IMG/VR virus record: IMGVR_UViG_3300038825_000243
Location: 1-21,300 of that record
Reading direction: 5' to 3' (one strand)
Length of the DNA stretch: 21,300 nt
Source: a virus
The notes beneath the pieces were generated by a model, which saw only the letters and a program-made list of their open reading frames with translations, did not search any database and was not told where the DNA came from. Position numbers and translations under genes: made by a program. Of the stretch, positions 4,190 to 20,225 are shown in pieces (position 1 is the stretch's first letter; the number at the start of each line of letters is the position of its first letter).

Positions 4190-4639
4190 TTATTCCTTAC
4201 AACTTCTTAATTGCTCCGAGTTGAATATGGCACGTCTGCCAACTTGTTCAGCGTATTTAGAATTAAGTAACTCATCACCAGCCTTTTCCCATTCGTTAAG
4301 TTCCATGTAACTTCTGGTCATTCTAAAGCTCATCCAAGTGTTGATGCCCATGTTAAACACTACATCAATGCAAACGTATTGAGCTGTAATAGGAAGTTTA
4401 CGCCAAGCTATCCAGTGCTTATCTAAATCTTTAATGACGTTAGTAATATCATTATTAAGCAGATACATGGCTTCTTCTTCTGTGATGCCATTGGTTTCAA
4501 GATTCCTGCCCACGCCCACGCTGGTATATCCTGTGGGGCAAACGTAGGACTTGAGGACTAAGCCCTCAAAATCTATCAGCCTTTTTTTAATTAAATCTCT
4601 ATCGAAATGTTTATCTTCTCTAGGCATATCAGCGTACAT
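4190..4639 (-). CDS. Endolysin, GH24 (T4-type) lysozyme
   Basis: This 149-residue muramidase cuts peptidoglycan at the end of infection. The family core is clear: LIDFEGLVLKSY with catalytic E25, then YVCPTGYTSVGVGRNLETNGIT, then EEEAMYLLNNDI. By spacing to T4 lysozyme (E11, D20, T26), the second and third positions are C34 and S40. Cys at position two is common in the E-8x-(D/C)-5x-T family, but Ser at the Thr position is unusual, with T39 one residue earlier. There is no signal peptide or SAR helix, so it should need the neighbouring holin to reach the wall. The start forms TAATG with the holin stop; M5 is an alternative start. Confidence 0.9.
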   Translation of the reverse strand: MYADMPREDKHFDRDLIKKRLIDFEGLVLKSYVCPTGYTSVGVGRNLETNGITEEEAMYLLNNDITNVIKDLDKHWIAWRKLPITAQYVCIDVVFNMGINTWMSFRMTRSYMELNEWEKAGDELLNSKYAEQVGRRAIFNSEQLRSCKE

Positions 4640-5010
4640 TATTTTTTTACTTTTTCGAAAGTTCTTAAACCACTCATGCCAAGCATCGCCATGACGATTG
4701 TTGAAAGCTGACTAAAATCGAATTCTGGGGTTGCAAAATCAGAGCCATTAATAATAAGAATGTATTGAATGATAGGCTCAATAAGAAAATGATAAACAAG
4801 TGCTATGCCACAAGCCCAACCTATAAATGGTCTCCACCCAGAAACAAAAACATTTTCATGTGCAGCTTCTACTTTGTTAAGTTCTATCTGTGCTCTGTTT
4901 AAAGAAATAATTTCTTTTTCTAGTTCGTGAGATAGTTTAAGTTTTAAATCCTTATCAGCAACAAACTTATCCAGAATATCGCCAACAGGCTTAATCAGTT
5001 TTTCAATCAT
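4639..5010 (-). CDS. Holin, 3TM superfamily
   Basis: A 123-residue membrane protein. The amphipathic N-terminal half (residues 1-52, many K/E/L) is followed by VSGWRPFIGWACGIALVYHFLIEPIIQYILII (two hydrophobic segments, about 57-87) and a third (LSTIVMAMLGMSGL, about 102-115), ending RTFEKVKK. The 'GWRPFIGW' and 'MLGMSGLRTFEK' motifs are hallmarks of the GTA/phage 3TM holin family. It should form the inner-membrane lesion that releases the lysozyme encoded immediately downstream (TAATG overlap). Nine bases separate it from the upstream 66-residue membrane gene. Confidence 0.88.
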   Translation of the reverse strand: MIEKLIKPVGDILDKFVADKDLKLKLSHELEKEIISLNRAQIELNKVEAAHENVFVSGWRPFIGWACGIALVYHFLIEPIIQYILIINGSDFATPEFDFSQLSTIVMAMLGMSGLRTFEKVKK

Positions 5011-6165: not shown

Positions 6166-6546
6166 TTAGCCTTCTAAGGCTTCTATTCTTGTTATTAATT
6201 CAGCATTTTGTGCTGAAAGTTCTTGTATAGATTTTACTAGCATTGGTATCAAAGCTGATGGAGCAATACCTTGTGTTCCATCTACTTCATCTTCTTGCCA
6301 AATCTCACCATTATCTAAAACTTCAGGGTGATTATCTATTGCTTGTTTAACTTCTTGTGCAATAAATCCATATCTATTTAGATTATTTTCAAGTTTAATT
6401 CTATCTTCACTACCTTCTTTATAAGCTGATAAAGATGGGTCAATCTCACCTTTCTTTTTCCAGTCAAAGGTTACAGGTCTTAAATCATTCACAAAAGATA
6501 ATCCTGCTGAAGATGTTTGTATGTTTTCTTTTAGTCTTTCGTCTGA
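6166..6546 (-). other. Encoded S74 autoprotease/chaperone domain
   Basis: This segment encodes residues 1874-1999. S1874 (codon 6544-6546) and K1879 match the catalytic Ser/Lys pair of the endosialidase-tailspike chaperone family, which cleaves next to that serine after the trimer has folded. The end has the helical LVKSIQELSAQNAELITRIEAL that normally trimerises. If cleavage occurs, the virion-bound fibre would end near residue 1874. Confidence 0.85.
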
Positions 6547-9500
6547 GTCTGAATACCATGTGGTTGTTCCAAGAGCAACTCTTGTTCTTAAACTATTTGT
6601 CCTACCAAAAGTTACCCATTCTTGACCATAACCAGTTACAGAAGTTCCTAGAGTTATTCTGCCAACACCATTTCCAGCCCCTGCCCCTGTTGAATTTGCT
6701 TGATAACCTATGCTGACATTATCATAACCATTTTCATTGTTCTTTTCTGCTTCATACCCAAGTGATGCAAGTTTAGTTCCTGTTCTGTTTAATTGTGCTG
6801 CATTATAACCAACTGCTGTGTTGTTACTGCCTGTGGTGTTTGTAATAAGTGCTGATTTGCCGACTGCGGTGTTATAAGCTCCTGTAGTATTTGCAAAAAG
6901 TGCTGCGTGTCCTACAGCTACATTTGCTGTGGCAGTTGTATTGCCTGCTAATGCTTGTGAGCCAACTGCTGTATTATTTTCACCAGTTGTGTTTGCGGTA
7001 AGTGCGGAGATACCAACTGCTGAACAGTTTGAGGCGGTGGTGTTAGCATCCAAACTTAATGCCCCAACTGCTACGTTACTACCACCTGTGGTGTTAAACT
7101 GTAATGTTTTATGACCGACTGCTGTGTTGTTAGATGCTGTGTTTGAAGTCAAAGACGCATAACCTAATGCTGTGTTGTTTGACCCTGTAGTAGTCGCATC
7201 TAATGCTAAGCCACCAACTATTGTGTTTTGAACGCCTGTGGTGATTGAGCCACCTGCTTCATATCCGACACCTACATTGTAAGCATTAACAGCAGATGTA
7301 AAGTTTTGGTCTCGTAATGCGAAAGCTCCTATTGCAACATTATTAGCACCTTGCGTATCTGCTGTTAAAGCATCATATCCAACTGCGGTGTTATAAGAAG
7401 CTGTAGTGTTTGCTCTTAAAGCTTCAAGTCCAATTGCGGTATTGTTTGCACCAGTTGTAATAGAATTTGCTGCTGCTGAACCAACTGCTGTATTTCCACT
7501 AGCTGTCGTTGCAGCACCTAAAGCTGAATCACCGATAGCTACGTTATAGTTACCAGTTGTATTCGCATCTAAGGCTAAAGCACCGAAAGCGTTATTACCT
7601 GTACCTGTGGTGTTTGCTACTAAAGACTGATAACCAAATGCTGTATTATTATCGGCTGTAGTGTTATCTCTTAAAGAACCATAACCAACTGCTGTATTGT
7701 AATTTCCACCATTACTATCTTCTAGTGCTGCATGACCTATAGCAACATTAGAAGTTCCAGATGCTTCACTTGTTAAAGCATTATATCCAATACCAATATT
7801 ATAATTGGCAGTAGTATTTGCATCTACAGCGTTGTTTCCAATCGCAATATTAAATCTACCTGTGGTATTTGCTGCTAAAGCCAAATAACCAAGTGCTGTG
7901 TTATCTGAGGCTGTGGTGTTTGCTGTAAGAGCTTGGCGACCAATTGCAGTATTTTGTGTACCTGTGGTGTTTGCTTCTAAAGTATTGTAACCAACTGCGG
8001 TGTTACTAGAAGCTGTGGTGTTTGCTGCAAGCGACCTATGTCCAAACGCAGTATTTTGACTACCTGTTGTATTAGCTCCTAGAGCATTTACACCAGCAAC
8101 TATGTTCTGTCCTCCTGTCGTATTAGCATCTAAGGCGTTTGCTCCAACTGCTACGTTATCTGTACCTGTGGTGTTTGCTGATAAAGCAAAATAACCAACT
8201 GCGGTGTTGTTATTTGCAGTAGTATTAGCATCTAAAGTGTAATTACCAACGCCAACATTAAATGTTCCTGTGGTGTTTGCTCCTAAAGAATTTCTACCTA
8301 TTGCAGTATTATTTGAGGCGGTAGTGTTAAGAAGTAAAGCATCCCTACCTATAGCAACATTATCTGCGCCTGTGGTGTTTGCAGCTAAAGAACTTTTACC
8401 AACTGCTGTATTATTTGATGCGGTGGTGTTTGATGATAATGCCGATTCTCCAAAAGCAACATTTTCACCTCCTGTAGTGTTTGCAAATAAAGAATAATAA
8501 CCAACTGCTACGTTGTTTGATGCGGTGGTGTTTGCTGATAAAGCATTATATCCAAATGCGGTGTTGTTGGATGCTGTGGTAATCGCATCACCTGCAAGAC
8601 CACCAATAAGAGTATTGTAGTAACCTGTAGTTAATGCTGCTCCTGTTCCATAACCTATAGCTATGTTGTAATTATCTTCAATGACTGTATTGTTCATTGA
8701 GCCTAAAGCATTTACACCTATTGCTATTGCTCTATCATCTGATGTAGCAGCATCCATAGCACCAGCACCTATTGCAACATTACCATTTCCTGAGGTTAAA
8801 GAAGCACCTGCATTAGCACCAATAGCGGTATTATTATTATTTGTAGTAGATGATAAAGCATTATCACCTAAAGCAACATTACTTGTACCAACAGGATAAT
8901 TACCATCAAGTTTGATAGTTCCGCCATCTATTGAGACGTTACCTGCTACTGTAAGACCATCGGTTACTGCTGTACCTGCTACGTCTATGCCTGTTGAGGT
9001 TGTAGAAAATTTAGTAACATTGTCATGCCTTAATTGTACTGCACCATCAGTATTAAATATTGCATATGATTCTACATTTCCTATATTTCCAAGAACAATT
9101 TGGCTTTCACCTTGAATAAATAGACTACCAGTTCCGCTGTCTGCGATAACACTTGCAGTACCTGTATGATAAATCTGTAAATCTGAACCTGCTCCAAAGA
9201 TGGCTTTGTCGTTGTCGCCAAAGTTAATATCGCCTGTAGTTGTTAAACCTGTCAGCGTACCAAGACTTGTAATGTTAGGTTGTGCTGCTGTGGCTAGTGT
9301 GCCTGTGATGTTTCCTGAAGATTGAATAGTACCAGTAATATTAATGTTACCAGTACCTGTAATGTCATTAGAGTTTAAATCTAAATCACCACCTAATTGT
9401 GGAGTTGTATCTTCTACAACATTGTTAATAGAAACTGCTTGTACTCTAGCATCTGTGTAATAGAGGTTAGTGCCCTCAGTTAAATCGCTGGTAGATTTAC

Positions 9501-12165
9501 CAGAGAAGGCTGAGTCAAATCTAGCACTTGTGTAATATAAATTGGTTGTACCTTCGCTGACTGTATCACTATCGCCTTGAGTAAATGTTAGAACACCAGT
9601 GGTTGAGTTGTAAGCTAGTTGAGTTGATCCTTCTGAGATAGCAGCTCTGGCTCTAGCATCTGTGTAATATAAATTGGTTGCTCCTTCTGAAATATCATCT
9701 GAGTCTAATACCACAGCTCCAGTTAATGTATTAACACTGGTTACTGGTGCTGCTGATGCTGTAAAGCTAATAACACCAGTTGAGCTGTTGTATGAAATAT
9801 CACCAGTTGCAGAGATAGAACTTCTTGCTCTGGCTGTGGTGAAATATTCGTTAGTGCCTTCTGAGAGGTCTGATGTGGATTTAGAGCTTAGGTCTAGGTT
9901 TGATCCTGTTTGTAGATTAACCCTAGCATCTGCTCTTGCATCTGTGTAATAAAGATTAGCTCCTTCAGTTAAATCAGCAGTATCGTGATTAGATAAGCTA
10001 GAAACTGTACCAGTAACATTACCAGTAACATTGCCTTCAATGTTAGCAACCAAAGTACCAAGTGAGTTAAGCGTAATATTGCCTGTAGCAGTACCATCGG
10101 CTGTGGTTAATCCTAATGTAAACTTATCAGCAGACTCATCCCACATAAAGATGCCATTATCTTGATTACCCCTGTTAATCAACATACCAGAATCATTGAC
10201 TGGGCTGCCTGTTAGTCCTGCATTAAGCTGGAACAGGTTATCTTCTATGTCTAAATTTGTAGTATCTAATGATGTTAGCGTTCCATTAACAGTTAAATTT
10301 CCTGCAACTGTTAAGCTATCTGCTATTTGCACATCATCTGGCAAAGTTAGAGTTACATCAGCAGATTCACTGCCTGAGCCTGTAACTGTAATTTTGTTAG
10401 CAGTTCCTGTGATTGTTTGAATGTAATTGCCTGTAGTATCTGTGCCTAGAGCAACGCTGTTTGCATCTACGCTTGCAGCTTGAATATTAAGGGCATCAAC
10501 AAACGATTTAGTAACTCTAGTATCAATAGCAGAGTTAGCCCTTGCATCTGTGTAATATAAATTAGTGTTTTCTGTTAAATCGTTAGTTGTCTTATTACTA
10601 AAAGCAGAATCAAATCTGGCTTGAGTGTAATAAAGATTAGTGCCTTCTGTTAAATCGTCTGTATCTTTTGTAGCAAGTCTTGTATCGAATCTAGCATCTG
10701 TGTAATAAAGATTAGTTCCTTCTGCTAAACTGGTTGTAGACTTAGTTGCAAGTCTAGTATCAAAGTCTGCATTAGCTCTGCTTGATGTGTAATATAAATT
10801 AGTAGTACCTTCAGTTAAATCATCTGTGTCTTTTGTGGCTAATCTAGTATCAAAATCAGAATTAACCCTTGCAGTTGTATAGTAAAGATTTGAGCCTTCT
10901 GCCAAATCACCAGTGTCTTTTGTTGCTAATCTAGTATCAAAATCAGAATTAACCCTTGCTGTGGTGTAATAAAGGTTAGAGCCTTCAGCTAAATCGCCAG
11001 TATCTTTGGTAGCCAATCTAGTATCAAACATAGATTCGCCCCTAGCTGTAGTCCAGTAGAGATTAGTGTTCTCTGGAACGATAGAAGTATCTAATGTTGA
11101 TGTTGCTGATTGATTAGAGCCATTACCTATAAATATTTTGCCATTGTCTAAGTTAGGCGTTGCATTTGATCTACCAGCACCACCCACTTTAATTGATCCA
11201 ACAGAAGCATGACTTCTAATAACCTTACCTATGTTTTGTATTTGTGAGCTTTCGCCTGTTGGTACTGTGGTTGTATAAGCTCCTGCTGTGGTAGATACAT
11301 ATAGAATCTGACCCTCTGAAACTCCAGAAGTATCTAAATTCTCTATTGTTCCAAAAGTAACAACCTGTAAAGCAGCATTATCATTTGCATCAGATAAAGC
11401 CAATCCAAAAGCAGGCATCTTAGATGCATCGTCAGCTTTTGCTTGAGCTACTGTTGGCACATCTCCAGAAACTCCAGATATATAAACCACATCTCCAGCA
11501 GATAAAGCACCATCAGCTTTAGCATTAAATCTAATACCACCCTCTAAATCACCTATAAACTCATTGCTTGCTGTAATAGTGTTAAAAGTAACATCACTTG
11601 TTACAGCAACAGCCTGACCAATAGCAACAACTGGTGTTGAACTTTCGCCTGTGCCACCTGTAATTGTTACGCCAGTGCCACCAGATATGCTTTCTACATA
11701 ATCGCCAGTGGTATCAGTTCCAAGAGTAATAGAGTTAATTTGAACAACTGTAGATATATCTACATCAGTACTACCATTAAAAGAAACTGAACCAACAACA
11801 TCTCCTGATAAAGATATAGTTCTTGCTGTTTCTAATGTGGTGGCTGTATCAGCATTTCCTGTTAAGTCTCCAGTAACATTACCAGTAACATTGCCTGTTA
11901 AATTGCCTGTTACATCACCTGTTAAATTGCCTGTAAATACATTTGATGAGCTAATGCTTACGCCAAATGTGATCCAATCTGTGTTAGCAGCATTTCTTAT
12001 TTTTAATAGGCTGTTTGCTGTATCTACCCATAACTGATGGGCAAAAGTAGTTGAAGGCTCAGTAGCCCCTGAATTAACTGTGGCTATGGCTGCTAGAGCA
12101 TTGTTTAAATCAGCTCTGAAGTCAGCTCCACTTTGGTTAGCTAAATTGTAATCGTGTTGTGCCAT
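6166..12165 (-). CDS. Giant repetitive tail fibre with C-terminal S74 intramolecular chaperone
   Basis: A 1999-residue fibre. The N-terminus (MAQHDYNLANQSGADFRADLNNALAA) resembles the virion-attachment domain of many marine phage fibres. Then come short TGN(V/L) repeats (about residues 77-103) and 12 units of the EGTNLYYTxAR type (about 360-912). A stretch (about 1000-1095) contains GDNDKAIFGAGSDLQIYH and leads to 43 copies of a 17-residue unit, NTAVGYxALxANTTGxx (1096-1836), like the beta-roll head of trimeric adhesins. The last 126 residues form a Peptidase_S74 domain: S1874-D-E-R-L-K1879 holds the Ser/Lys pair of the endosialidase-type self-cleaving chaperone, followed by GFIAQEV and a coiled-coil end. 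The mature trimer would bind the host surface. AGAGG precedes the ATG. Confidence 0.9.
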   Translation of the reverse strand: MAQHDYNLANQSGADFRADLNNALAAIATVNSGATEPSTTFAHQLWVDTANSLLKIRNAANTDWITFGVSISSSNVFTGNLTGDVTGNLTGNVTGNVTGDLTGNADTATTLETARTISLSGDVVGSVSFNGSTDVDISTVVQINSITLGTDTTGDYVESISGGTGVTITGGTGESSTPVVAIGQAVAVTSDVTFNTITASNEFIGDLEGGIRFNAKADGALSAGDVVYISGVSGDVPTVAQAKADDASKMPAFGLALSDANDNAALQVVTFGTIENLDTSGVSEGQILYVSTTAGAYTTTVPTGESSQIQNIGKVIRSHASVGSIKVGGAGRSNATPNLDNGKIFIGNGSNQSATSTLDTSIVPENTNLYWTTARGESMFDTRLATKDTGDLAEGSNLYYTTARVNSDFDTRLATKDTGDLAEGSNLYYTTARVNSDFDTRLATKDTDDLTEGTTNLYYTSSRANADFDTRLATKSTTSLAEGTNLYYTDARFDTRLATKDTDDLTEGTNLYYTQARFDSAFSNKTTNDLTENTNLYYTDARANSAIDTRVTKSFVDALNIQAASVDANSVALGTDTTGNYIQTITGTANKITVTGSGSESADVTLTLPDDVQIADSLTVAGNLTVNGTLTSLDTTNLDIEDNLFQLNAGLTGSPVNDSGMLINRGNQDNGIFMWDESADKFTLGLTTADGTATGNITLNSLGTLVANIEGNVTGNVTGTVSSLSNHDTADLTEGANLYYTDARADARVNLQTGSNLDLSSKSTSDLSEGTNEYFTTARARSSISATGDISYNSSTGVISFTASAAPVTSVNTLTGAVVLDSDDISEGATNLYYTDARARAAISEGSTQLAYNSTTGVLTFTQGDSDTVSEGTTNLYYTSARFDSAFSGKSTSDLTEGTNLYYTDARVQAVSINNVVEDTTPQLGGDLDLNSNDITGTGNINITGTIQSSGNITGTLATAAQPNITSLGTLTGLTTTGDINFGDNDKAIFGAGSDLQIYHTGTASVIADSGTGSLFIQGESQIVLGNIGNVESYAIFNTDGAVQLRHDNVTKFSTTSTGIDVAGTAVTDGLTVAGNVSIDGGTIKLDGNYPVGTSNVALGDNALSSTTNNNNTAIGANAGASLTSGNGNVAIGAGAMDAATSDDRAIAIGVNALGSMNNTVIEDNYNIAIGYGTGAALTTGYYNTLIGGLAGDAITTASNNTAFGYNALSANTTASNNVAVGYYSLFANTTGGENVAFGESALSSNTTASNNTAVGKSSLAANTTGADNVAIGRDALLLNTTASNNTAIGRNSLGANTTGTFNVGVGNYTLDANTTANNNTAVGYFALSANTTGTDNVAVGANALDANTTGGQNIVAGVNALGANTTGSQNTAFGHRSLAANTTASSNTAVGYNTLEANTTGTQNTAIGRQALTANTTASDNTALGYLALAANTTGRFNIAIGNNAVDANTTANYNIGIGYNALTSEASGTSNVAIGHAALEDSNGGNYNTAVGYGSLRDNTTADNNTAFGYQSLVANTTGTGNNAFGALALDANTTGNYNVAIGDSALGAATTASGNTAVGSAAANSITTGANNTAIGLEALRANTTASYNTAVGYDALTADTQGANNVAIGAFALRDQNFTSAVNAYNVGVGYEAGGSITTGVQNTIVGGLALDATTTGSNNTALGYASLTSNTASNNTAVGHKTLQFNTTGGSNVAVGALSLDANTTASNCSAVGISALTANTTGENNTAVGSQALAGNTTATANVAVGHAALFANTTGAYNTAVGKSALITNTTGSNNTAVGYNAAQLNRTGTKLASLGYEAEKNNENGYDNVSIGYQANSTGAGAGNGVGRITLGTSVTGYGQEWVTFGRTNSLRTRVALGTTTWYSDSDERLKENIQTSSAGLSFVNDLRPVTFDWKKKGEIDPSLSAYKEGSEDRIKLENNLNRYGFIAQEVKQAIDNHPEVLDNGEIWQEDEVDGTQGIAPSALIPMLVKSIQELSAQNAELITRIEALEG
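6658..8880 (-). repeat. 43 in-frame copies of a 17-residue (51 bp) beta-roll repeat
   Basis: Residues 1096-1836 of the fibre divide completely into 43 units starting N-(T/V)-A-(V/I)-G. Thirty-eight are exactly 17 residues. Three carry a four-residue insertion (units 4, 31, 43) and two are one residue short (1, 34). Units alternate in many places between ...NTTASN and ...NTTGxx endings, giving a 34-residue higher-order period. The codons for conserved residues vary synonymously. Confidence 0.92.
9430..11085 (-). repeat. Twelve dispersed EGTNLYYTxAR repeats in the fibre shaft
   Basis: Twelve copies of a motif read as (E)GTNLYYTDAR with small variations. Many are followed by a spacer such as FDTRLATKDT or FDSAFS, giving an approximate period of 25-30 residues. 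Two adjacent copies (around 10840-11010) are nearly identical in DNA as well. The region is interrupted at about 10070-10500 by unrelated fibre sequence. The motif is common in fibres of aquatic phages and probably forms a repeating shaft element. Confidence 0.85.
11858..11940 (-). repeat. Short 12 bp tandem repeats encoding TGN(V/L)
   Basis: Successive 12-base units of the type aacattgcctgt / taaattgcctgt / tacatcacctgt encode TGNL, TGDV, TGNV and TGDL near residues 77-103 of the fibre. They are in frame and imperfect. Such units often form a thin triple-stranded beta-helical or collagen-like connector; that structure is inference. Confidence 0.7.
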
Positions 12166-17064: not shown

Positions 17065-18750
17065 TTATACAATCCCCATCTTGCCCTGATTGTTCATGGC
17101 GTTGTTTATGATTGATGTGATCAATCCTTTTCTTGATGCCAGTAACTGATCAAAGCCAGCAGCATCAACTGTTGATATGTTGAAGTTGACTGTAGCACCG
17201 CCCATTCCTTGACCTTTGCTGTGATCTACAACTGTTTCATTGGGATGCAATATAGCTGGAAATCCACCTTTACCATCTACACCACCAGCTCTTGCTCCCA
17301 TGCCAGTATATCCACCACCATCAAAGCTGTCTAAAAAATTCTCAAACTTACTAGTAATTGGTTTAATAATCATTTGCTGTATTGCAATTCTCATCAATTG
17401 CTCTACTACAAAATTTGCAAAATCTTCAAATGCCAGTTTTCCTGTTTTGATGCCATCCATAATGGTATCTTCCATTTTTTTCATTGATGCTACTGTTGCA
17501 TTTTCAATTGATAAATTCACATCTTCTAAAGATTGTTTATATTTTTGTATTGGGCTTAGAAGGTCTGTAAATACATTGCCAGTTTTTTTAATTCCATCAG
17601 AAACACCCTCAACACTATCAACCAAATCATCTGCTGTTATTTTCATTCCTCGCAAACTATCAGCAGCTTTTTTTGTTTTTTCTAAGAATTCTTCACTAGC
17701 AATATTTTTTTCAGCTTTACTTAAATCTAATTCTGCTTCTTTTACTCTTAACATTACATCTGCAATAGTTCCAAAAGCATTGCCAAGAGCAGGTGTTGCT
17801 TTAAGAAGATCAGCTATAAAATTTCCATAACTAATTTGTGCTTTCGGTAATAATTGTTCTAAATTTGCTACAAAATCTGCAAAAGCAAATTGAAGCTGTC
17901 CTACTGCTTCTATTCCACTAGCACTAGCATCAATGATTGAATTTGCAATGCTCATACCCAATTTATCCATTCCACCAGCACTATCAATCATAGATTGTAT
18001 GGCTTCTGCAATTTTTTCTTGCATCTCTTCAAAAACTGGTAAAAATGCAGTTGTAATATTGTTCACAAAAGAACCAAGCTGCATCTTGACAACGCCAACA
18101 GCATCATTAAATTGCTCAGTCCTTCTAATTACTTTTTCACTTAAAACAATGCCTAGTTCTTTAGCCCTAGTTATGAAATCTTGCAAACCTCTTTGGCTAA
18201 GGTCTTTAATTGCACCAGTTAAGATAACACCCTGCCTACCAAATAAACCAGCCAAAGCTGCTGCTCTGGTTGATTGATCTGCCATGTTAGAAATTCCAAC
18301 AGCAGTTTCCACCAATAGAGTGTCAAAATCTTTTAAATTTCCATTGTTATCCTTTAGCTCTACGCCAAGATCATTAAAAATATCTTTTTGAGTTTTTAAA
18401 CCCCTAGAGGCATCGCCAATGCTTCTTGCAAATTTAATTAATGCTGTGTTAGCCCCTTCAACTGTTGTTCCAGATTCTCTTGCAGCCAAGTGAAAGGCTT
18501 GCAGGGTATCGGTTGCTATGCCTGTTTGTGTTGATGTTTTTCCAATAGCATCTACAGCTTGAAACGATCTATCAACAAGCAATGCTAACGCTGTTGCTGT
18601 AGCACCAGCAGCCAAGCCAACGCCTGCAACTCCTTTAGCAGCACCAGCAGCAGCACCACCAACAGTTTTAAGACCTTTAGTAACTTTATCAAAAGCTGCT
18701 TTGGTCTTATCTATTGCTGTTAGCTCAAATTTTACTTTTTTATTTGCCAT
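17065..18750 (-). CDS. Tape measure protein
   Basis: A 561-residue tape measure setting siphovirus tail length. The N-terminal FELTAIDKTKAAFDKVTKGLK is typical. An Ala/Gly-rich hydrophobic stretch follows (about 31-58), then helical sequence with FGRQGVILTGAI (about 170-181), a motif repeatedly seen in tape measures. Near the C-terminus MEDTIMDGIKTGKLAFEDFANFVVEQLMRIAIQQMIIKPI is followed by a Gly-rich region from about 476 (FDGGGYTG, GGFPAILHPNETVVDH), as in lambda gpH-type C-termini. At about 0.15 nm per residue the length would correspond to a tail of roughly 80-85 nm. The start lies inside the end of the frameshift extension of the upstream gene. Confidence 0.92.
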   Translation of the reverse strand: MANKKVKFELTAIDKTKAAFDKVTKGLKTVGGAAAGAAKGVAGVGLAAGATATALALLVDRSFQAVDAIGKTSTQTGIATDTLQAFHLAARESGTTVEGANTALIKFARSIGDASRGLKTQKDIFNDLGVELKDNNGNLKDFDTLLVETAVGISNMADQSTRAAALAGLFGRQGVILTGAIKDLSQRGLQDFITRAKELGIVLSEKVIRRTEQFNDAVGVVKMQLGSFVNNITTAFLPVFEEMQEKIAEAIQSMIDSAGGMDKLGMSIANSIIDASASGIEAVGQLQFAFADFVANLEQLLPKAQISYGNFIADLLKATPALGNAFGTIADVMLRVKEAELDLSKAEKNIASEEFLEKTKKAADSLRGMKITADDLVDSVEGVSDGIKKTGNVFTDLLSPIQKYKQSLEDVNLSIENATVASMKKMEDTIMDGIKTGKLAFEDFANFVVEQLMRIAIQQMIIKPITSKFENFLDSFDGGGYTGMGARAGGVDGKGGFPAILHPNETVVDHSKGQGMGGATVNFNISTVDAAGFDQLLASRKGLITSIINNAMNNQGKMGIV

Positions 18751-19224
18751 TGTTTCGTTTCTCTTCAGCTATTTCTAGGTAAGCTATCCACCCTTGAAAT
18801 TCGTGGATAGTAATTTCTTGGATTTCTTGTAAAGTTTTTCCAAGTTTTTCAGCCAGTGCATATTGCACATATAAATTACTATCCTCTATTAGTTTTTTTT
18901 AACTTCCTCAATAGGCTCTTGCCCCATGATCTGTTGAGCTATATTAACCAATACTTCTCTGTCAACTTTGTTTAATAAGGAATTTTTATCACTAAGATCA
19001 AATAACTTATCGCCATTTTCATCTAGTGCCTTATAAATAAGGACATAAGCCATCATCGTTAGATCATCCTCTTTGCTCATTTTGTAGAGCTTAGAAGTTT
19101 CAGCTAAAGTTAATGGCTTACTATATATTTTTAATGGGTTATCTTCATCACCCCATTCAGGCACTTCAATTACTTTTACATCTTGCTCTGCAAAATGTTT
19201 TACAGCATTTTCAATTGCTTTCAT
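18740..19224 (-). CDS. Tail assembly chaperone gpGT-like product of a -1 frameshift
   Basis: The predicted 161-residue fusion consists of the full 111-residue gpG-like protein plus 50 residues read in the -1 frame from 18892 to the TAA at 18740-18742. The extension reads LIEDSNLYVQYALAEKLGKT, then LQEIQEITIHEFQGWIAYLE and a short Lys-rich end. This closely resembles the 'T' part of phage tail assembly chaperones (DUF4035-like: A..lGkt..Ei...t..Ef..Wiay). No start codon with a ribosome-binding site serves the -1 frame alone, and it lies between the chaperone and the tape measure, exactly as in lambda G/GT. The fusion should bind tail tube subunits and coat the tape measure during assembly. Confidence 0.85.
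18889..19224 (-). CDS. Tail assembly chaperone, gpG-like
   Basis: A 111-residue acidic, mainly helical protein. Residues about 15-50 (VKVIEVPEWGDEDNPLKIYSKPLTLAETSKLYKM) carry the 'v.VPEWG....P..iy..pltl.e..kl' signature of siphovirus tail assembly chaperones. This is the zero-frame product, made in excess over the fusion in related phages. It ends at the TAA directly after the slippery run of eight A. It starts two bases after the tail tube stop. Confidence 0.85.
   Translation of the reverse strand: MKAIENAVKHFAEQDVKVIEVPEWGDEDNPLKIYSKPLTLAETSKLYKMSKEDDLTMMAYVLIYKALDENGDKLFDLSDKNSLLNKVDREVLVNIAQQIMGQEPIEEVKKN
18892..18898 (-). promoter_or_regulatory. -1 ribosomal frameshift slippery heptamer A AAA AAC
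   Basis: In the zero frame the sequence reads GTT AAA AAA AAC TAA, containing the X XXY YYZ heptamer A AAA AAC right before the stop codon. Slippage by one base moves both tRNAs onto AAA AAA and opens 50 further codons. The TAA at the next codon and TAG after it may add to the pause. I did not identify a convincing downstream hairpin by eye. Confidence 0.85.
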
Positions 19225-19226
19225 TT

Positions 19227-19616
19227 TTATACAGTGCTTTCTGTTAGAGCACCATTGCCTTGAACTGAAATACTTGCTTCAACCAATCCATCAAATGATG
19301 CAGTTCTTGAAACGCCAGTTACAATAGCTGAACCACTGTAATAAGTATCGCCAGAAGCATCGCCTTCAGGATAAACATTTAAAGTTACTTCTGATCCAAT
19401 GCTTAAAGCACCTTGACCTGATGTATCAGTTTCATCCCAAAACACATCTAAACTTCCTGAGAAGTTTGTTAATGATGGTTTATAAGTTCTAGCAGAATCA
19501 CCCATTGAAGTATCTTCTAAAGTATCAGCAGATTCTTCGATTGAGTAAGACCTAATCTCAGCTACAGCATTTGAGCCAACCTTTACAGTTCCTTCGCTTC
19601 CTTTATGAGTCGCCAT
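19227..19616 (-). CDS. Major tail tube protein
   Basis: A 129-residue beta-rich protein (MATHKGSEGTVKVGSNAVAEIRSYSIEESADTLEDTSMGDSARTYKPSLTNFSGSLDVFWDE...). The pattern 'G..g.v......va...s.si......e.t.mgd....y.p.l...sGslev..D..D' is typical of siphovirus tube proteins (lambda gpV N-domain-like). It should form hexameric rings along the tail. Its length is normal for a tube protein without an added Ig domain. It overlaps the 54-residue gene in another frame by 14 bases. Confidence 0.87.
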   Translation of the reverse strand: MATHKGSEGTVKVGSNAVAEIRSYSIEESADTLEDTSMGDSARTYKPSLTNFSGSLDVFWDETDTSGQGALSIGSEVTLNVYPEGDASGDTYYSGSAIVTGVSRTASFDGLVEASISVQGNGALTESTV

Positions 19617-19778: not shown

Positions 19779-20225
19779 TTAAACTGCTACGTCAGGAGCG
19801 TTTTCCTTGACATAATAGTTAGTTAAAAATGTAAGAGAGACATAACCCAAAGGCTTTTCTCCCTCGCTATTAAACTCTATCTCTGTGGATTCTAAATAAG
19901 TATCTTTAGCTAATCCATCAAGAGTTCTATCAGCAGCTATCGCTGCTTCAACTTCTTTGCTTATTGTATCAATAGTATCATCAAAGTTGCTAGTAGCTTT
20001 TGCATAACCCTCTACTACAACTGATAATTCTCTGCTCATAAGTCTTTGTGTACCTATAACGATAGGCTCAGAAGTTTCTGATTTAGTATAAATGATTAAT
20101 GCTGGCAAGCTTGCATTTTCTAAAGGGTAAACTCTGGACTCATAAACATTAGAGCCAGTGGTTGTTAATCCTGTTAGAGTAGTGCCAAATTTTTCTCTGA
20201 TTTGTTGTCTAATATGATTTGCCAT
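19779..20225 (-). CDS. Tail terminator protein, gpU-like
   Basis: A 148-residue alpha/beta protein. MANHIRQQIREKFGTTLTGLTTTGSNVYESRVYPLENASLPALIIYTKSE follows the 'IR..i...l...TG..v...Rv.pl....lPAl.vy' signature of minor tail / terminator proteins (lambda gpU class). It is followed by RELSVVVEGYAKA...DDTIDTISKEVEAAI and a beta C-terminus. It would cap the finished tail tube and dock it to the neck. Its place between the neck proteins and the tail tube agrees. It starts in TAATG with the upstream paralogue. Confidence 0.82.
   Translation of the reverse strand: MANHIRQQIREKFGTTLTGLTTTGSNVYESRVYPLENASLPALIIYTKSETSEPIVIGTQRLMSRELSVVVEGYAKATSNFDDTIDTISKEVEAAIAADRTLDGLAKDTYLESTEIEFNSEGEKPLGYVSLTFLTNYYVKENAPDVAV

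Follow-up and report, generated by a model that had tools for sequence, protein, structure and literature searches.

We assign a locus in the tail module of a marine bacteriophage to the lambda-type G/GT tail chaperone cassettes, with a probability of roughly 95%. Judged from sequence comparison, a fraction of ribosomes is predicted to slip by -1 on the heptamer A_AAA_AAC at the end of the G gene, and a 12-bp RNA stem just downstream probably stimulates the slip. The arrangement itself belongs to an already known class (lambda G/GT); the part worth following is the stem, which is conserved and whose pairing partners change. A sequence-only reading of the same DNA had predicted a programmed -1 frameshift producing a G/GT-type tail chaperone. 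This prediction is supported by the position of the genes, the conservation of the heptamer and of the -1 frame, frame-specific selection, the HK97-type fold of G, and isolate genomes, including a joined coding sequence (CDS) in an isolate.

Gene order and protein families at the locus

The IMG/VR virus record has 22,945 bases, of which the analysed window covers 21,300. Pfam, PHROG and the list of open reading frames (ORFs) place a siphovirus tail module on its minus strand, which holds a distal tail protein gene and others in addition to the features listed in Table 1. Two overlapping frames, G and T, are flanked by the major tail protein and tape measure genes, the location known from lambda G/GT and from the G-T frameshifts of many long-tailed phages (PMC5009743). 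The 3' end of G reads GTT AAA AAA AAC TAA, with A_AAA_AAC in slippery phase, and the zero frame stops right after it, as the sequence-only reading had stated. From the heptamer, the -1 frame (KKLIEDSNLYVQYALAEKLGKTLQEIQEITIHEFQGWIAYLEIAEEKRNNGK) continues for the 50 codons that had been proposed and terminates inside the start of the tape measure gene, as expected; an open frame of 50 codons arises by chance in the local sequence with p ~0.01. The predicted G-T fusion is 161 aa long. Seven copies of the string AAAAAAC occur in the window versus a mean of 9.0 by chance, hence the string alone carries no meaning. In the whole window, the copy at the end of G is the sole A_AAA_AAC in slippery phase within a gene.

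Table 1. Coordinates of the tail genes, the frameshift junction and the RNA stem in the window
Feature	Position	Strand	Details
Tail terminator	19779-20225	minus	
Major tail (tube) protein gene	19227..19616	minus	upstream of G; PHROG 1407 "major tail protein", 1.2e-16
G, tail assembly chaperone	18889..19224	minus	zero frame; 111 aa; TAA at 18889-18891
Slippery heptamer A_AAA_AAC	18892..18898	minus	abuts the zero-frame stop
T	18740..18898	minus	-1 frame from the heptamer; 52 codons (50 beyond the heptamer); TAA at 18740-18742
Tape measure protein gene	17065..18750	minus	start (18750) overlaps the end of T; Pfam Tape_meas_lam_C 4e-13; PHROG 8462 7e-33
RNA stem, 5' arm	18873..18884	minus	GGAUAGUAAUUU; starts 7 nt after the heptamer
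RNA stem, 3' arm	18805..18816	minus	AAAUUACUAUCC
Inner hairpin GUGCA/UGCAC	18856..18868	minus	within the stem loop; 94% of cells paired, less well conserved

Both sequence and fold liken G to known tail chaperones. G matches PHROG 344 ("tail assembly chaperone", 6e-9), and its match to Pfam Phage_TAC_13 falls below the family cut-off. An AlphaFold model of G (mean pLDDT 82) found its best PDB match in 2OB9, the HK97 tail assembly chaperone gp13 (Foldseek E 4.8e-4, probability 1.00, TM 0.57), although identity in the structural alignment is 15%. For T, 18 of 19 members hit PHROG 337 ("tail protein"), and the predicted structure is a short helical hairpin (pLDDT 87); a fold search with T alone gave no match at E <= 0.001. 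In a viral structure library, the 160-aa tail assembly chaperone of Rhodobacter phage RcRhea matched G (E 4.4e-6) and, weakly, T (E 0.32). T had also been described as DUF4035-like. We found no support for this: none of the 19 T sequences matched DUF4035 in Pfam at E up to 1, in a copy of Pfam that lacks the accession tried for this family, and the match is to PHROG 337 instead.

Conservation and coding selection among relatives

A search of IMG/VR with G returned 80 loci, and the readable set consists of 79 of these plus the window (80 sequences). Selection and stem pairing were computed on 51 distinct sequences. An in-phase slippery heptamer and an open -1 frame are present in all 80 readable sequences (one truncated by the end of its contig), which is the conservation in relatives that the sequence-only reading called for. 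The heptamer is A_AAA_AAC in 79 and A_AAA_AAG in the remaining one. Three types of junction occur, namely A_AAA_AAC TAA (74 sequences), A_AAA_AAC TCC TAG (5), and A_AAA_AAG GAC TAA (1), i.e., the heptamer is retained although its spacing to the stop varies. The Asn codon at the A_AAA_AAC sites is AAC every time; elsewhere in G, AAC is the rarer Asn codon (87 versus 169 AAT).

The -1 frame downstream of the heptamer has a pN/pS of 0.197, compared with 0.82 for the zero frame and 2.70 for the +1 frame; these two other frames are open in none of the 51 distinct sequences. For comparison, pN/pS of G is 0.133. Purifying selection on T is confined to the -1 frame, and the alignment check proposed for this frame is thus passed. 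T residues L3, D6, and L9 are conserved and lie upstream of nearly all possible start codons; T is under coding selection and has no conserved start of its own.

A second search added relatives with 57-74% identity in G, in which the heptamer is A_AAA_AAC, A_AAA_AAG, or A_AAA_AAT and T is alignable. The same arrangement is found in CRP-811, CRP-821, CRP-406, HTVC026P, HTVC112P, HTVC202P, phi3LM21, DSL-LC06, and Mcat11; it is common to cultured Roseobacter, Pelagibacter, and Sinorhizobium phages and extends to the more distant DSL-LC06 and Moraxella phage Mcat11. The expectation that the element would be lost in annotation was right for most of these cultured-phage records, which carry no annotated T; several recent marine phage genomes leave this half of the chaperone unannotated. 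It was wrong for RcRhea, where G and a two-piece chaperone CDS are annotated at the same position. RcRhea and RcCronus (KR935216) resemble the window in that G and a 160-aa joined G-T are annotated with the major tail protein on one side and the tape measure on the other, and in the structural match to both G and T (weak for T), but identity in G is only 26%. No close sequence relation to lambda G/GT was found, and a plasmid collection gave no match.

A base-paired stem downstream of the heptamer

The sequence-only reading had seen no obvious stimulatory hairpin. We find otherwise. The 94 nt downstream of the heptamer are predicted to form a 12-bp stem and inner hairpins with a folding energy of -23.7 kcal/mol (z -5.9 versus dinucleotide shuffles), and z for the window stem is -3.1 versus shuffles that preserve the T protein and its codons. 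The 12 stem pairs are kept in 99.5% of cells across the 51 distinct sequences. Pairs vary as U-A/U-G/C-G, as A-U/G-U, and as C-G/G-C, and one locus (L134) has G-C at a position where others carry A-U or G-U. The C-G/G-C swap exchanges AGT...ACT for ACT...AGT and hence Ser...Thr for Thr...Ser. No intermediates of this swap exist among 78 loci; on the G-gene tree it accounts for five changes, with two independent contrasts on well-supported branches.

In other clades, stems start 4-8 nt after the heptamer, with unrelated sequences and different pairing partners. Examples are the A_AAA_AAG clade (AAGATAAGC/GCTTATCTT, spanning 115 nt), CRP-811 (GCGACCCATTCA/TGAATGGGTCGC), and DSL-LC06 (TGAGGATGCTGAA/TTTAGCATCCTCG). 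We saw no convincing stem in HTVC026P, HTVC202P, or L141. Across 15 diverse phages, the excess of stems 4-9 nt past the heptamer has a combined p of 3.6e-6, which is too optimistic because related phages were counted as independent; the same test inside G gave 0.37. The locus in the window thus has a stable structure, conserved by pairing, that starts within the ~5-9 nt after the heptamer expected of a -1 frameshift signal with a downstream stem stimulator. Rfam returned no match at the gathering threshold in the window, and none up to E = 1 over 18650-19000.

The 12-bp stem is probably a stimulator of slippage. We further consider it reasonably likely that such stems are selected to set the rate of slippage, and with it the stoichiometry of the tail chaperones, in a broad set of phages, most of them from marine alphaproteobacteria, at a near-fixed distance from the heptamer and with a sequence and a partner inside T that change between clades. 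The stem could instead be a by-product of the amino acid sequence of T and of base composition, with no role of its own. The three phages that have no convincing stem would fit this, as would a few clades in which protein-preserving shuffles fairly often reach the observed stem. We nevertheless regard a by-product as unlikely, given the near-complete pairing, compensatory changes of which one alters the protein on both sides, and a spacing fixed at 5-8 nt in several clades despite unrelated sequences and partners.

Two further observations concern this region. Around the G stop of L141 and L142, A_AAA_AAT replaces A_AAA_AAC and no stem is evident, which offers a natural contrast between heptamer strength and stem. 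In Mcat11 (L170; 1504-1540), a short GCCGAC/GTCGGC hairpin followed by a T run lies 5 nt past the heptamer and resembles an intrinsic terminator in the T frame.

Predicted slippage, its alternatives and other features of the window

By the reading we favor, the majority of ribosomes would terminate at the end of G. A minority would slip back one base while tRNAs occupy AAA (P site) and AAC (A site), and would continue through T to yield the G-T fusion; the stem would probably pause the ribosome and make slips more frequent. If the roles known from lambda apply, G would bind the tape measure protein and the fusion, through its T end, would recruit the tail-tube protein (PMC5009743). The locus resembles lambda G/GT in its predicted -1 shift at the end of G and in a short -1-frame T that ends at the tape measure gene; it differs in that A_AAA_AAC abuts the stop and a conserved long-range stem follows 7 nt downstream. 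In E. coli, A_AAA_AAC shifts far less readily than A_AAA_AAG (PMC5009743), which counts against the favored reading and may be the reason why a strong stem is kept. A shift of 6-7% was measured in an HK97-like chaperone cluster (PMC3711429). An E. coli survey predicted a hairpin in three of five phage clusters, and local folding was near or below average in two phage clusters (PMC4066793). A frameshift prediction tool has been trained on ~2,500 annotated phage frameshifts (PMC10885494).

The signal is also like that of IS911, in which an A-rich heptamer is followed by a branched RNA stimulator (three-way junction; PMC5009743), but gene and family are different and IS911 adds an upstream Shine-Dalgarno stimulator (PMC4066793), whereas none is established here. 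In the window, GAGGA does stand just ahead of the heptamer. Some relatives carry GAAGAA, GAGAAT, or GAGACC there, so it may be mere Glu codons. Stimulators in this frameshift class are poorly defined, and the ~80 close and many more distant relatives make a large natural data set in which a heptamer that is weak in E. coli is combined with a stem whose partner changes between clades.

T might be reached in other ways. It could be a separate small protein, made by re-initiation after the G stop from a start of its own (GTG at T codon 11). An early GTG, ATG, or TTG does occur in the -1 frame in 70 of 80 sequences, AGAGGA precedes the GTG of the window by 13 nt, and the phi3LM21 record has a separate short ORF annotated at the T position as a hypothetical protein. 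We hold independent translation to be very improbable, because 10 of the 80 sequences lack a start codon at this place and T residues ahead of the possible start are conserved; it would also leave the conservation of the heptamer unneeded, and the relative RcRhea is annotated with a two-piece chaperone CDS. Equally slim is the chance that RNA polymerase slips on the A run and inserts an extra base into a fraction of the mRNA, from which T would be read by normal translation. The run of eight consecutive A's in the window is near the length that permits such slippage, but it shrinks to six in L017 and phi3LM21 while the in-phase slippery heptamer stays, and it is seven in the CRP phages, DSL-LC06, and Mcat11. 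The conserved stem 7 nt downstream, moreover, fits the expectation for ribosomal slippage. Homopolymers are prone to error, and a single-frame gene could look like two frames if its A run had been sequenced or assembled wrongly; relatives rule this out, because isolate genomes and ~80 independent contigs have the same junction, some with other stops and with shorter A runs. Slippage of the ribosome on the heptamer is, in our view, the reading that these comparisons favor.

Elsewhere in the window, several minus-strand ORFs deserve mention. The ORF that precedes the phage lysozyme gene (ORFs 4639-5010 and 4190-4639) ends in GTA AAA AAA TAA TG. Here, A_AAA_AAA abuts the stop, and the -1 frame enters the lysozyme gene with 152 open codons. 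This is probably ordinary stop/start coupling, although a fusion is formally possible. The ORF at 2028-2393 has a weak match to the YqaJ recombinase domain (Pfam E 0.0016, below the cut-off), and an apparent continuation (GIIECKL...) lies in another frame in the next ORF at 1454-2038, overlapping it by 11 nt; a gene split in two, a frameshift, or an error could each explain the pair. Finally, the ORF at 6166-12165 encodes a fiber-like protein of 1999 aa, which contains numerous repeats of the NTTG..A(V/I)G type and carries a Peptidase_S74 (endosialidase chaperone) domain at its C terminus.
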